Source: a virus. From it: a DNA stretch of 20,835 nt. The stretch's first letter is position 1, and the number at the start of each line of letters is the position of its first letter. The stretch covers positions 1-20,835 of IMG/VR virus record IMGVR_UViG_3300010354_000844. One strand, given 5' to 3'. The notes under the pieces are model-generated. The model saw only the letters and a list, made by a program, of their open reading frames with translations. It had not been told where the DNA came from and did no database searches. The position numbers and the translations under genes are program-made. Below are positions 1,161 through 18,269 of the stretch, in pieces.

Positions 1161-1346
1161 TTATTTGTTAAATCGTTCAAAGTTTTCAAAGTCTTCGCCA
1201 TCAGATGTATAACCATGCCGTAAATCATTCAGCCAACCTTGTTGATTTGGTTTTCGGCCACGCTTTTTCTTTCGTCGTGCAGCGGCTTCTTTTTGTTCTC
1301 TTTTCCAACGCTCGTATTCCGATTCAGGTTCTGGAGTATACATCAA
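1161..1346 (-). CDS. Small charged protein of unknown function (61 aa)
   Basis: I do not recognise this protein. It is 61 residues with three parts: an acidic start, a very basic middle (KKKKRGRKP around residues 26-33, preceded by a KREQKEAAARR helix), and an acidic, aromatic C-terminus ending DFENFERFNK. Its ATG overlaps the rnh stop by four bases (ATGA type), and its stop lies 14 bases before gp45, so it sits tightly inside an operon and is very likely translated. In T4 the region after rnh holds dsbA and the late co-activator gene 33. A gp33-like or DNA-binding role is possible by position, but I see no sequence match that supports it. Confidence 0.7.
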   Translation of the reverse strand: MMYTPEPESEYERWKREQKEAAARRKKKRGRKPNQQGWLNDLRHGYTSDGEDFENFERFNK

Positions 1347-2179
1347 AATTCCTCTAAATGTGGCATAAGGCTCTTCAATTTATGATCAATAAAATATTGA
1401 AGCAGCTTATCTCTGCCCTTTCCTTTCTGCGATTCGTAGATTTCTAAAATATGATCTTGTAAATCTTGTGGTACATTACTCATATCAATCAGTGTGCTAT
1501 TTCTAATATATTTAGGATTTTGATAAAACAAAGACGATTCTGCATCAGTTTTAATTTGAGCAATACGTTTTTGTGTCATTGGCGTTTGTCGCTTACCATC
1601 TTGTACAAAAGTGTCATCATCACTAAGAATATTAGGAATTCCGTCACTAGAATCACCACCTATAATGTGTTCAAAAAGAACTTCACGAGGATTAGAACAC
1701 ACAAGGTATTTATCTGTAGTAGGACTGTATTGTTCTACATTTGAAAAAATTTGAAGTTGTTGAAAATCCTTATCGTTAGAAACAATAAGAATTTTTTCAT
1801 TTTGATGATATGTTTTACAGAGTGTGTAAATAACATCATCAGCCTCTGCGCCCTGTAAGCGAATACTGGGATATGGAAATACTGTCTTAATTTCTTCTCT
1901 TATTAGATCTAAAACTTCAAATACAGCTCTCCACTCGTCTTTTTTTGCTTCTTGTTGCTTTTTACGATTAGCTTTATAATATGGAAAATATTGTTTACGC
2001 CAATAATTATTGCCATCATTACAAAGAATCATATCTCCATACTGTCTAAACTTTGTGCGGTATTTACGATATGTGTTTAAAACCGTATGGCGAATATAAT
2101 CCTCGTTTAGAGGTTCGCCATCATTTGCTGCTTGAAATATGTTTGCCAGAATAATCTGGTTGTTGTCAATAAGTAACAT
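1343..2179 (-). CDS. rnh: RNase H / 5'-3' exonuclease (T4 Rnh-like, FEN family)
   Basis: This enzyme removes RNA primers and adjacent DNA from lagging-strand fragments. The 278-residue product (T4 Rnh is about 305) has the metal-binding acidic residues of the FEN/5'-nuclease family: D5 in LLIDNN, D55 in ILCNDG, the E112-A-D114-D115 cluster in GAEADDV, D136 and D138 in SNDKDF, and D176/D179 in GGDSSDG. The YWRKQYFPYYKANRKK stretch (59-74) matches the arch-region motif of T4 Rnh (WRRDFAYYYKKNR). The ATG at 2179 has no Shine-Dalgarno sequence, and a sigma70-like promoter ends six bases upstream, suggesting a leaderless transcript. The gene heads the clamp and clamp-loader operon. Confidence 0.93.
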   Translation of the reverse strand: MLLIDNNQIILANIFQAANDGEPLNEDYIRHTVLNTYRKYRTKFRQYGDMILCNDGNNYWRKQYFPYYKANRKKQQEAKKDEWRAVFEVLDLIREEIKTVFPYPSIRLQGAEADDVIYTLCKTYHQNEKILIVSNDKDFQQLQIFSNVEQYSPTTDKYLVCSNPREVLFEHIIGGDSSDGIPNILSDDDTFVQDGKRQTPMTQKRIAQIKTDAESSLFYQNPKYIRNSTLIDMSNVPQDLQDHILEIYESQKGKGRDKLLQYFIDHKLKSLMPHLEEF

Positions 2180-2185
2180 ATGTTA

Positions 2186-2213
2186 ATTATATCATACAAA
2201 GAAGAAAAGTCAA
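2186..2213 (-). promoter_or_regulatory. Sigma70-type promoter upstream of rnh
   Basis: On the minus strand there is a -35 box TTGACT (2213-2208), a 16-base spacer, and a perfect -10 box TATAAT (2191-2186). The -10 is extended by TG one base upstream (2194-2193). The -35 overlaps the stop codon of the gene before it. Six bases separate TATAAT from the rnh ATG, so the expected transcription start is at or next to the A of the ATG. Promoter calling is by consensus match only. Confidence 0.7.
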
Positions 2214-7345: not shown

Positions 7346-8834
7346 TGGACTCCTTTGGTAGTTGCACCGACACTAATTTAAACGGAAACCCTTCATTAGT
7401 ATATATTTTTAATCGTTCATACAGATGATTCATTCCGTGATTGATTTGTTTCTTGTATCGCAGATCGTCTGCTATATCAATCAATTTCATCTGAATTTTT
7501 GTTTCACTCTTTCGTAATCCTCTCCCTATAGATTGTAATATTCGTATAACCGATTTAGAAGGTGAGGCAAAAACAATATTATGAATGTTTCTTATATTTA
7601 TACCTGTAGAACATGTACCATACGAAGCAATAAGAGTTGCATTTGATCCAGAATCCATAATTTTTCGTATTTGTTCTCTTTCATCTACTTCTGTAGCTCC
7701 ATGAATAAAATAAACAGGTTTTGAAGAACTTGATTTAATTAATTCATAAAGCGGTTTTCCTTGCAATTCAACAAAATTAAAAAGAACTAGAGTATTTCCA
7801 TTTAATTTGTTACATAAATTTTTTATAAATGTGTTTCGTCTGGTATTACTCACAACCCAACGAATTTCGTCCACATACAACATTTTTTTAGTTGTTTCAA
7901 TATCTTCTGGACTGTATTGTAGCTGTAGACAGTCAATGTTAATATTAGACAATAGATCTTGATCTATAAGTTTTTTAGTGGTAGTGGTATGATACGTAGG
8001 ACCAAATAAACCTTCAATAACTAGTTTATGAGTTTGTGTGCCATCAAGTGTTCCTGTTGTACCTATACGATATTTGGTTTTTTTGGCTTTACTCATGATA
8101 GATGAAAGGGATTTAGCTTTAAACAAATGACATTCATCACCAAATACACCAATAAAATCTTCAAAATAATCGTATGGCTGATTGTAAATGCTCTGCCAAG
8201 TAGAAATAATTATACGTTTGGTAGAAGTTTTATCTTTACCAGACATTACTGTATGAATATTTCGATCTGCTCTCCACGAATCGTGTTTAGAATATTCACG
8301 AAAATCTGCTAACATCTGTGCTACCAAACTGGTGGTTGGAACTATTATTAATAATTTTCCTGTTGGATTCTGATCTAACATCCAACGACATAATAGATAT
8401 ATCATCAAAGACTTACCAGAACCTGTAGGAGACACTAGAAGGGCTCTAGAATGCTCCAAGGCATGTTGCACGGCCTGTATCTGGTAATCGTATGGTCGAA
8501 TCTCTTTACCTCCAGCAGATATACTTAAACCGTCTATAAATGTTTTAACATCTTTAGGATCCGGTTTATCGTATGAAATAGTAGATAACTCCCAAGTGTA
8601 TCCACGATCTTTTGCAAATTTTATTACTTGATCGGTTAAACCGGCAAATATAGTCTGTGTATACAAATTAAACAGACGAATTTTGCCGTCCCAAAGTTTC
8701 TTTTTAAATGCAGGAGTATATTGAAAGTTGGGAACACTAAACGTAAAATAACTGTTGAGTTCCTTGGCCAAGGAACGATCACAATCAACTTTAATCATTA
8801 CAGAATCTGGTTGTGTGATCGTCAGGTCGGCCAT
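7323..8834 (-). CDS. uvsW: Recombination and replication-fork helicase (T4 UvsW-like, SF2)
   Basis: UvsW is an SF2 helicase that unwinds R-loops and branched recombination intermediates, promotes fork regression, and helps switch T4 from origin to recombination-dependent replication. The 503-residue product is somewhat shorter than my memory of T4 UvsW, mostly outside the helicase motifs. It shows Walker A SPTGSGKS (135-142), motif Ia IVPTTSL (164-170), the DECH box (233-236), motif III TTGTLDG (259-265), an ASYGTCSTGINI segment (403-414) and motif VI QSIGRGLRKS (434-443). The small N-terminal DNA-binding domain (about 1-100) includes FKKKLWDGKIRLF (43-55), which is typical of the family. Its ATG shares one base with the uvsY stop (TAATG). 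Confidence 0.95.
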   Translation of the reverse strand: MADLTITQPDSVMIKVDCDRSLAKELNSYFTFSVPNFQYTPAFKKKLWDGKIRLFNLYTQTIFAGLTDQVIKFAKDRGYTWELSTISYDKPDPKDVKTFIDGLSISAGGKEIRPYDYQIQAVQHALEHSRALLVSPTGSGKSLMIYLLCRWMLDQNPTGKLLIIVPTTSLVAQMLADFREYSKHDSWRADRNIHTVMSGKDKTSTKRIIISTWQSIYNQPYDYFEDFIGVFGDECHLFKAKSLSSIMSKAKKTKYRIGTTGTLDGTQTHKLVIEGLFGPTYHTTTTKKLIDQDLLSNINIDCLQLQYSPEDIETTKKMLYVDEIRWVVSNTRRNTFIKNLCNKLNGNTLVLFNFVELQGKPLYELIKSSSSKPVYFIHGATEVDEREQIRKIMDSGSNATLIASYGTCSTGINIRNIHNIVFASPSKSVIRILQSIGRGLRKSETKIQMKLIDIADDLRYKKQINHGMNHLYERLKIYTNEGFPFKLVSVQLPKESNETLQNN

Positions 8835-9268
8835 TAAACTCCTTGGGTAAATTTATACCAATCTATCATAGCACGAATTTGCCATTGTCGATTATTGATA
8901 ATTTTTACTATATTTTCTAGATAATTAACTTTTTCAGACTGAAACGCAACTCGTTCGTCCAGTTTAATCCAATCAGAATCAGATGTAATTAAATCGTCTG
9001 CTTCTGTTTTGAGTACATTAAGCTCAAAAGGTTCCCAACCTAAATTAGTCAGTTCTTCTTGACTCATACGACCAGTATAATACAGCCATTTATTACGACG
9101 AAGAACTGCTTGTTCGTTTTCTAATTTCTTTAAACGAAGTTTTTCGTCCATAAAAAATGTAAGATATTTATTATGAAGCTGTGGTGTATTTGCAGATTCA
9201 CGATCTAAAGCAGTTTCGTCAATCTTTAGATCTTCTTTAATCATTGTTTTAAGTTCGTCAAAAGTCAT
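8834..9268 (-). CDS. uvsY: Recombination mediator (T4 UvsY-like)
   Basis: UvsY loads the UvsX recombinase onto gp32-coated single-stranded DNA. The 144-residue product is close to the T4 length (137) and is highly charged and helical. It has the start TFDELKTMIKEDLKID, the central LRRNKWLYYTGRM (56-69) and the C-terminal NRQWQIRAMIDWYKF, all of which resemble T4 UvsY. I chose the ATG at 9268. A six-codon extension to a TTG at 9286 would run through the -10 box of the promoter. There is no Shine-Dalgarno sequence, and TATAAT ends six bases upstream, so a leaderless message is likely. The stop is fused to the uvsW start. Confidence 0.93.
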   Translation of the reverse strand: MTFDELKTMIKEDLKIDETALDRESANTPQLHNKYLTFFMDEKLRLKKLENEQAVLRRNKWLYYTGRMSQEELTNLGWEPFELNVLKTEADDLITSDSDWIKLDERVAFQSEKVNYLENIVKIINNRQWQIRAMIDWYKFTQGV

Positions 9269-9274
9269 AATTAT

Positions 9275-9302
9275 ATTATACAACAAAATTTAAAATATTC
9301 AA
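9275..9302 (-). promoter_or_regulatory. Sigma70-type promoter upstream of uvsY
   Basis: On the minus strand, TTGAAT (9302-9297) is followed by a 16-base spacer and TATAAT (9280-9275). Six bases then lead to the uvsY ATG. This is the same spacing as the rnh promoter, and it places the predicted first base at the A of the ATG. A second overlapping TATAAT starts at 9275. The promoter lies directly after the stop of the tube-fold gene (9304). It would allow the recombination operon to be expressed independently of the late genes. Confidence 0.62.
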
Positions 9303-9303
9303 G

Positions 9304-9792
9304 TTATAAGTATTCTATTTTGTAATCCGTAAATGTAAAAGTAGCTGTGGCTATAGCTTCCATAGCATCTGATGTTATTGTATTGAATTGAATCTGAGAA
9401 AGCTCTATAGGGAATAATCGTCTAAAAGACACTTTTATTTTTGGTTTATATGAACTGTTTGTTATTAAAAGATTTGCATCAGATGCTTGATTTTCGTATG
9501 AATTTTTCATATCGGTTTCAAAATAATTACTATTATCTTTCATCCAATTATGAATTTCTAACCAATTTTTTAAATTTTCATCAACTTTAAATCCTATAAC
9601 AAGAGGATCAAATCTAACAGCACCAACAGGAACTTTTATAGGATGACTAAAAATTGTTGGTTGTTCTACTTCTCCAAATTTCATTCCTGGAAGATTTGCT
9701 GCCTGACAAAAATAAACTATATTTGGAATCCTATTTAAACTAAATTCAAAATAATTTATTAATAATGGATTGTTTGTTTCTGGAGTAGGCAT
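9304..9792 (-). CDS. Tail-tube-fold structural protein (possible gp3/gp54-type tail completion or tube initiator)
   Basis: The 162-residue product has the strand pattern seen in myovirus tail tube-like proteins: FEFSLNRIPNIVYFCQAANLPGM (15-37), a V-G or VPVG turn near 55-58, FDPLVIGFKVDENLKNWLEIHNWM (61-84), and a C-terminal ATATFTFTDYKIEYL. The ATG at 9792 is preferred. The open frame runs 18 codons further to 9846, but that stretch is translated terminator hairpin. It lies between gp23 and uvsY, where from memory cyanophages carry a tail completion gene annotated as gp3. It could instead be a tube initiator or another inner-tail protein. It is more distant from the two gp19 copies at 15928-17057 than they are from each other. 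Confidence 0.82.
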   Translation of the reverse strand: MPTPETNNPLLINYFEFSLNRIPNIVYFCQAANLPGMKFGEVEQPTIFSHPIKVPVGAVRFDPLVIGFKVDENLKNWLEIHNWMKDNSNYFETDMKNSYENQASDANLLITNSSYKPKIKVSFRRLFPIELSQIQFNTITSDAMEAIATATFTFTDYKIEYL

Positions 9793-9797
9793 ATTAA

Positions 9798-9805
9798 TAT
9801 TTATG
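9798..9805 (-). promoter_or_regulatory. Late-promoter-like box CATAAATA before the tube-fold gene
   Basis: The minus strand reads CATAAATA at 9805-9798, a one-base variant of the T4 late consensus TATAAATA. It follows the gp23 terminator, as needed to restart transcription. Five bases separate it from the ATG. By T4 numbering (box at -13 to -6) the first transcribed base would be the A of the ATG. The region is AT-rich, so a chance match is possible. Confidence 0.45.
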
Positions 9806-9813
9806 TAAACGAA

Positions 9814-9843
9814 AAGGGGGGTCCTTTTTACGGGACCCCCCTT
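9814..9843 (-). terminator. Strong intrinsic terminator after gp23
   Basis: The minus strand contains AAGGGGGGTCC, an eight-base loop, and GGACCCCCCTT, followed by TTCGTTT. The 11 base pairs are perfect and include six consecutive G:C pairs. The hairpin lies 22 bases past the gp23 stop. It is the only obvious intrinsic terminator in the window and isolates the highly expressed capsid gene from the recombination genes downstream. Confidence 0.9.
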
Positions 9844-9865
9844 CATCGTTAGTTTTACTCACTTA

Positions 9866-11363: not shown

Positions 11364-11371
11364 TATTTATA
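11364..11371 (-). promoter_or_regulatory. Late promoter TATAAATA for gp23
   Basis: An exact T4 late consensus TATAAATA lies on the minus strand (11371-11364), 25 bases before the gp23 ATG. The predicted start leaves a leader of about 20 bases that contains AAGGAG. It sits immediately after the gp22 stop. Confidence 0.88.
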
Positions 11372-12351: not shown

Positions 12352-12359
12352 TATTTATA
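12352..12359 (-). promoter_or_regulatory. Late promoter TATAAATA for gp22
   Basis: An exact TATAAATA lies on the minus strand (12359-12352), 21 bases before the gp22 ATG. The predicted leader of about 16 bases holds AGGGG as ribosome site. Confidence 0.85.
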
Positions 12360-15913: not shown

Positions 15914-15921
15914 TATTTAGG
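15914..15921 (-). promoter_or_regulatory. Weak late-promoter-like box before gp20
   Basis: CCTAAATA on the minus strand (15921-15914) matches six of eight bases of TATAAATA and ends seven bases before the gp20 ATG. It is suggestive only because gp20 lacks a ribosome site; the match is imperfect and the region AT-rich. Confidence 0.25.
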
Positions 15922-18261: not shown

Positions 18262-18269
18262 TATTTATA
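18262..18269 (-). promoter_or_regulatory. Late promoter TATAAATA for the gp18 operon
   Basis: An exact TATAAATA lies on the minus strand (18269-18262), 31 bases before the gp18 ATG and just after the gp17 stop. The leader would be about 26 bases and carries AAGGAC. It probably drives everything from gp18 to the internal-protein gene. Confidence 0.87.

Follow-up and report, generated by a model that had tools for sequence, protein, structure and literature searches.

Candidate leaderless promoter modules at uvsY and rnh in a fragment of a T4-like phage and in related phages

The locus and its two promoter modules

The window, i.e., the whole stretch of DNA analysed, is a record of 20,835 nt and a fragment of a T4-like phage. 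The genes recognised on its minus strand are gp45, rnh, gp46, gp47, gp55, uvsW, uvsY, a tail-tube gene, gp23, gp22, gp21, gp20, gp18 and gp17; some of these names are given by analogy with T4. UvsY and RNase H are confirmed by Pfam and the tail tube by PHROGs; Gp23 is confirmed as well. No DNA-level match to 9.4 kb of the window was found among the phage records searched, and the UvsY relatives in named phage records have a protein identity below 60%.

The uvsY CDS (8834..9268, minus strand; 144 aa; Pfam PF11056, E=1.4e-28) starts at ATG 9268-9266. It is adjoined upstream by the tail-tube gene (9304..9792, minus strand; 162 aa from the ATG at 9792; PHROG 45, tail tube, E=1.3e-30). The rnh CDS (1343..2179, minus strand; 278 aa; Pfam PF02739 and PF09293, T4 RNase H) starts at ATG 2179-2177. 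A Shine-Dalgarno (SD) site was looked for before both ATGs and none was found.

The uvsY module (minus strand, 9302-9266) consists of TTGAAT (-35 box, 9297..9302), 16 nt, TATAAT (-10 box, 9275..9280), 6 nt and the ATG. The rnh module (minus strand, 2213-2177) consists of TTGACT (-35 box, 2208..2213), 16 nt, TATAAT (-10 box, 2186..2191), 6 nt and the ATG. The -35 box of uvsY starts one base past the tail-tube TAA (9306-9304) and is conserved in relatives; that of rnh overlaps the TGA stop of the preceding gene. Thus an earlier, sequence-only reading was right in describing two promoters identical in spacer and in distance to the ATG, placed at the preceding stop and followed by no ribosome site. 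The boxes are spaced as in sigma70-type promoters (16-18 nt apart), the -35 box of uvsY (TTGAAT) being weak, and the first T of each -10 box is 12 nt before the ATG, as in the TANNNT-type -10 of leaderless genes.

These ATGs are likely to be the true starts of uvsY and rnh, since: (i) both proteins have Pfam matches; (ii) T4 UvsY begins at the equivalent residue (compared by eye); (iii) the relatives in which uvsY is SD-led use the same start codon as the window.

The two matching arrangements could be meaningless, i.e., due to chance in AT-rich intergenic DNA. The exact motif TTGAnn-N16-TATAAT-N6-ATG is found twice in the window (uvsY and rnh only) and in none of 100 dinucleotide shuffles. 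When just the 45 nt before each of the 23 gene starts are shuffled, which preserves the local AT-richness, 0.0003 matches are expected vs. 2 observed; a looser definition of the motif gives 0.026 expected vs. 2 observed (Poisson P ~3e-4). Two other results are in favour of chance. With up to two mismatches, the window contains 4 matches vs. a shuffle mean of 1.69, and this is not significant (12 of the 100 shuffles reach 4). Moreover TATAAT alone, before 894 candidate ATGs of eight records, has no peak at 6 nt, which suggests that the leaderless arrangement is confined to a subset of genes. The plain TATAAT histogram was replaced by paired boxes with their spacing.

The uvsY and rnh upstream regions in relatives

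The uvsY family provides a natural comparison: with gene and start codon unchanged, some phages have an SD-led start and others an apparently leaderless one. The best 80 of 145 confirmed candidates were used. Exact TATAAT-N6-ATG is found in 26 of the 78 that have enough upstream sequence. Both boxes were scored on 54 distinct upstreams (window included), after removal of two loci without upstream, three matches not beginning at ATG, and identical upstreams. Among these 54, drawn from the best 80 of 145: (i) 38 are of the leaderless class, with the box 5-8 nt from the ATG and no SD; (ii) 9 have the promoter 19-24 nt from the ATG, all 9 with SD; (iii) 5 have no promoter, all 5 with SD; (iv) 2 are exceptions. 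None has a promoter at 10-18 nt. The exceptions are L040 (TATAAT-N6-ATG, with TCGAAT as -35) and L081 (its start is SD-led, and the -10 scored there is due to chance). The distance of 6 nt put forward earlier thus holds for uvsY and rnh in the window, but it is not fixed, since it varies from 5 to 8 nt at uvsY in relatives.

The -35 box of uvsY is variable in relatives (TTGTAA, TTGTTT and others). In some of them it falls inside the preceding CDS, and part of its conservation may thus be protein-driven. The leaderless labels were set by hand from the box scoring, with L040 and L081 corrected, on a UvsY tree of 76 rows. They need 3 changes, and well-supported branches force no fewer than 2 of these. 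The leaderless and SD-led modes have therefore replaced each other more than once.

For rnh, 56 loci were found and the upstreams of 51 were examined. The module (TTGAC, 16-nt spacer, 6 nt to the ATG) is kept in 19 of 19 close relatives (L083-L101, 85-100% identity). In the 15 distinct upstreams of close relatives, bases 1, 2, 4 and 6 of the -10 box are invariant while bases 3 and 5 vary. L102 (70% identity) has the boxes as in the window, but its match begins at residue 2. The module is absent in relatives at 41-44% identity (L103-L133).

These data also bear on the reading in which the promoter is real and the transcripts start elsewhere (upstream or downstream), uvsY and rnh being translated from another start codon or by another SD-independent initiation on a longer mRNA, e.g., one due to read-through from the preceding gene. 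Both genes are close behind their upstream neighbours and could be co-carried, and a second in-frame ATG is located 24 nt into uvsY. However, the start codon of uvsY is shared with SD-led relatives, and the leadered promoters of this type carry SD.

Paired boxes and T4-type late boxes in whole records

The window record being just a fragment, the longer records of relatives were used for the test of motif enrichment, which had been set beforehand. The enrichment is strong. In a spacer-by-distance grid, seven records without G001 (a 146-kb relative) give a peak of 15 at (16, 6), in which rnh recurs across records and one site is antisense, and G001 gives a peak of 20 at (17, 6). Most other cells contain 0-2 matches; at (16, 7), 5 of the 6 matches are one site inside gp46. 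The pattern TTGAC-N17/18-TANNNT-N6/7-ATG has 65 matches vs. 4 for the reversed-pattern control in the 14 related records G000-G013, homologous genes being repeated across records. The match/reversed values are 27/0 for G001, 11/0 for G003, 7/0 for G002 and 6/0 for G004. In cultured phages they are 5/0 for Mosig, 3/0 for HTVC008M, 6/0 for Melnitz, 2/0 for T4, 1/2 for Syn9, 4/0 for S-PM2, 2/1 for phiM12 and 2/3 for P-SSM2. T4 and several cyanophages (Syn9, S-PM2, P-SSM2) have little excess of leaderless spacings.

From 133 kb to the contig end, G001 contains 23 TTGAC-N17-TAnnnT promoters, one every few hundred bases. Nineteen have an ATG at 6-7 nt that opens a frame of 46-143 codons; two are 20 and 23 nt from the ATG, with leaders containing AAGGA or AAAGGA; one has a GTG with 20 codons only and one has nothing close. 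This early region has 50-60% GC vs. 39.5% for the whole contig. It is unlikely to be an assembly chimera since (i) a similar array (17 sense-strand sites) is found in the T4-like contig L205/G016, whose record encodes Gp23 (E=1.2e-134), and (ii) the start of a 772-aa protein of G003 resembles (by eye) that of a 768-aa protein of G001, both being leaderless. AT-richness cannot explain the arrays of G001 and L205, because they lie in DNA of about 55% GC. Chance is in fact refuted by the conservation at uvsY and rnh and by the whole-record counts, and we consider it very improbable. The earlier objection to AT-richness as a sufficient explanation is thus well founded.

The small genes of the G001 region (133000-146037, L145-L146) escaped a gene caller that had been trained on the remainder of the contig. 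L237, L200 and L269 have arrays of 6-11 leaderless-type promoters and no Gp23 was found in their records; the arrangement may therefore extend beyond T4-like phages. Outside arrays, leaderless-type genes include those of a dUTPase, an IMPDH-like protein and the 768-aa protein of phrog_459 (called peptidase). A promoter of this type is also found before gp32, there with a leader; in G001 and G002 gp32 has an SD. Replication-type genes mostly have a 16-nt spacer (often TTGACT), and the early arrays of G001 and L205 a 17-nt spacer (TTGACA). These spacers could mark two classes of timing, but both are found together in G003. TTGACA-N17-TACAAT-N6-ATG precedes a 327-aa protein in L211, L213, L231, L241, L246, L263, L266, L268 and L273, as well as in L209, which is cut. 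This protein starts MSYLIVDAANLFFRARHV and may belong to another 5'-3' exonuclease or RNase H family.

The codons located 5-8 nt after 181 box pairs were counted in seven records, the expected values being taken from positions 12-39. ATG is found 84 times vs. 4.7 expected, GTG 4 vs. 1.4 and TTG 3 vs. 3.6; none of the four other codons counted is enriched. Since L205, L200 and L237 were found through the motif itself, these three of the seven records are biased; G001-G004, found through uvsY, give 47 ATG, 3 GTG and 3 TTG. An enrichment specific to ATG is expected if a leaderless start requires a 5' AUG: in mycobacterial reporters ATG and GTG worked at the leaderless position whereas CTG and TTG were ineffective (PMC4633059). 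With this preference for ATG at 5-8 nt, a start elsewhere or a longer mRNA appears rather improbable for uvsY and rnh.

Another conceivable reason for the maintenance of the uvsY promoter is the priming of a replication origin by its transcript, as at oriF (ori uvsY) of T4. In the T4 record, oriF is indeed placed at uvsY and the uvsY transcript is given as its primer. However, an origin does not explain why rnh, the dUTPase gene, the IMPDH-like gene and a large number of early genes have the same geometry, or why it alternates with SD. As the reason for the module it is hardly credible; an origin role could exist in addition to a leaderless promoter.

T4-type late promoters have a similar distribution. 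In the window, the tail-tube gene has a late-type box CATAAATA (9798..9805, minus strand) 5 nt before its ATG, apparently a leaderless late promoter. Between gp23 and this box there is a terminator-like hairpin with a T run (9808..9850, minus strand; fold -28.5 kcal/mol), similar in relatives. The gp20 box CCTAAATA (15914..15921, minus strand), 7 nt before the ATG, is a candidate for a leaderless late promoter, although gp20 does not have one in general; in G012 and G013, TATAAATA is found 7 nt before the gp20 ATG. SD-led counterparts are the TATAAATA boxes of gp23 (11364..11371, minus strand; 25 nt before the ATG, AAGGAG) and gp18 (18262..18269, minus strand; 31 nt, AAGGA). That of gp22 (12352..12359, minus strand; 21 nt) is followed only by a weak purine run, GGGG.

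In 12 records, the TATAAATA matches before an ATG fall into two groups: 20 are at 4-7 nt and all of these lack an SD, whereas those from about 14 nt upwards mostly have one. In the same records CATAAATA has a peak at 5 nt (9 matches, no SD), and the control words TATAAAAA, TATATATA, TATTAATA and TAATAATA have no short-distance peak; the control word ATAAATAT does peak, but it overlaps the real late box. The leaderless arrangement of the tail-tube gene is found in 36 of 36 distinct upstreams, with the box at 4, 5 or 8 nt. gp20 is leaderless-like in 5 of 29 upstreams, one being doubtful (G003, 2 nt, with SD), and gp23 is SD-led in 35 of 35. The order terminator-like sequence, late box, tail-tube ATG (9793-9850 in the window) recurs in 36 of 36 distinct upstreams.

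In 15 related records, ATAAATA-N5-ATG is found 37 times and its reversed pattern 4 times. The match/reversed values are 9/1 for HTVC008M, 8/0 for Mosig, 4/0 for Melnitz, 2/0 for T4, 1/1 for Syn9, 2/1 for S-PM2, 0/0 for phiM12 and 3/3 for P-SSM2. In the cultured Pelagibacter phage HTVC008M, 8 of the 9 matches are exactly on annotated CDS starts (6280, 7562, 19456, 31132, 49760 and 75559 on the plus strand, 16007 and 18916 on the minus strand), the ninth (142,360) being outside the stretches compared with the annotation. At two of these eight starts (49760 and 16007) an SD-like run is also present. The sole Melnitz site inspected (129,067) has no annotated start and opens 8 codons only; the matches are thus not all gene starts. 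The earlier reading considered two genes, and both are real cases, but the scope is far wider, since early-gene arrays are included and so are late promoters of the T4 type.

In T4, uvsY belongs to the middle genes, and late boxes are present elsewhere in the window. The uvsY promoter could thus be a T4-style middle (MotA/AsiA) or late promoter. A T4-type middle system is unlikely because 14 related records were searched for MotA and AsiA without a match, while the T4 control matches (the window record itself is a fragment); no TGCTT is found in the uvsY upstream sequence either. As for a late promoter, neither TATAAATA nor NATAAATA was found before uvsY, and TATAATATA differs from the late box TATAAATA. 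Moreover a -35 box is conserved at uvsY. A middle or late promoter at uvsY is therefore given scarcely any weight.

Proposed mechanism and known systems

A distance of 6 nt between the -10 box and the ATG puts the A of the ATG at the usual sigma70 start site; in the same manner, about 5 nt between the late box and the ATG puts it at the start site of late transcription. It is highly probable that the uvsY feature is a real sigma70-type promoter giving a leaderless mRNA, that rnh has the same module, and that both belong to a wider habit with two arrangements. In this lineage the promoter would be either about 5-8 nt before the ATG without SD, or about 18 nt or more before it with SD, and this would apply to sigma70-type promoters (early and replication genes) as well as to T4-type late promoters. 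The earlier view that the leaderless arrangement recurs for a reason is thus supported by the enrichment, by the conservation at both genes and by the alternation with SD at uvsY.

The RNA polymerase would start at the A of the uvsY ATG or 1-2 nt from it, and ribosomes would recognise the 5'-terminal AUG in place of an SD. The start signals of transcription and translation would be united in a single short module. With distances of 5, 7 and 8 nt, the start is not exactly at the A unless the start site shifts. For uvsY and rnh, the simplest reading is direct recognition by the host sigma70 polymerase followed by leaderless translation; over the whole phage, leaderless transcripts would be made by host sigma70 and by a gp55-type polymerase. 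We infer the exact transcript start, the leaderless translation in vivo and the form of polymerase from these features of the DNA. The conservation and enrichment point to a selected geometry, with which a leader of one or two bases, or a poor translation, would also be compatible. Only the first gene of a unit needs a leaderless start, since uvsW, downstream of uvsY, has an SD. A likely benefit is that the expression of a gene would not depend on the neighbour upstream of it, at the cost of hardly any additional DNA.

A more ambitious proposal is a phage-wide two-mode system in T4-like phages of aquatic bacteria, in which (i) the distance between box and ATG decides the mode; (ii) early regions are made of leaderless units of one promoter and one gene; (iii) ribosomes are shifted to 5'-AUG initiation during infection, so that leaderless phage mRNAs compete well with host mRNAs. 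We regard it as speculative and, in this full form, rather unlikely.

The Thermus phage phiYS40 is a myovirus but is not T4-like. It makes leaderless middle and late mRNAs, and its infection is accompanied by a shift of IF2 and IF3 (review PMC3594737). It is thus alike in making many leaderless mRNAs, which in our case are leaderless as judged from the DNA; its leaderless transcripts are middle and late, while here early-type sigma70 promoters with a -35 box are also concerned. In bacteria, leaderless genes are known with TANNNT, a TA-like signal, some 12 bp upstream of the start codon (Zheng et al. 2011, PMC3160421). The likeness concerns the first T of the -10 box at 12 nt, the absence of SD and the start codon as initiation signal. 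Those genes belong to cellular genomes, chiefly of Actinobacteria and Deinococcus-Thermus, whereas T4-like phages with a clear -35 box, early arrays and T4-type late boxes are concerned here. In E. coli, mobile elements have leaderless genes, among them lambda cI (PMC3160421, PMC4633059). These are also phage-borne, but they are single genes and not a module repeated genome-wide.

The T4 uvsY promoter also has TATAAT as -10, but 50 nt before the ATG (counted by hand), and T4 encodes MotA and AsiA; here the distance is 6 nt, a -35 box is present and neither protein was found in 14 related records. Cyanophages have the late promoter NATAAATA and no motA or asi homologues (PMC2984593), i.e., the same late box and the same absence as here; the account of NATAAATA, at least in its passages on this promoter, does not mention leaderless starts (PMC2984593). 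For Melnitz, no middle promoters are reported (PMC9004378). Leaderless mRNAs are already known, and their use in T4-like phages is apparently new: in the open-access literature, with few subscription papers covered, neither leaderless early arrays nor leaderless late promoters were found described for these phages.

Textbooks take T4 as the model for the timing of phage genes and for translation led by an SD. Should its relatives in natural waters use leaderless mRNAs for early genes, replication genes and some structural genes, the prediction of gene starts, the models of expression and the ideas on ribosome takeover need to be revised. The idea is directly testable, since HTVC008M, cultured on Pelagibacter, has the late-promoter form at eight annotated starts.

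Genes of ribosomal protein bS21 are found in HTVC008M (KC465899, 91237), Melnitz (MZ577098, 35461) and G015 (37954), and are absent in G000-G014 and G016. This pattern of presence and absence does not fit a simple link between bS21 and altered initiation. As to the host, 14 related records contain neither of the markers psbA and WhiB. A search of bacterial and archaeal genomes for the strict motif gives 23 stretches, 7 with a frame of at least 30 aa, mostly from gut or rumen MAGs, and no aquatic group stands out as host. Two relatives (L144:12878-18681 and L147:4367-9817) each have seven tRNA genes, with one and the same set of seven anticodons. Most of these read codons ending in A or T, as would suit a host whose GC content exceeds that of the phage body.
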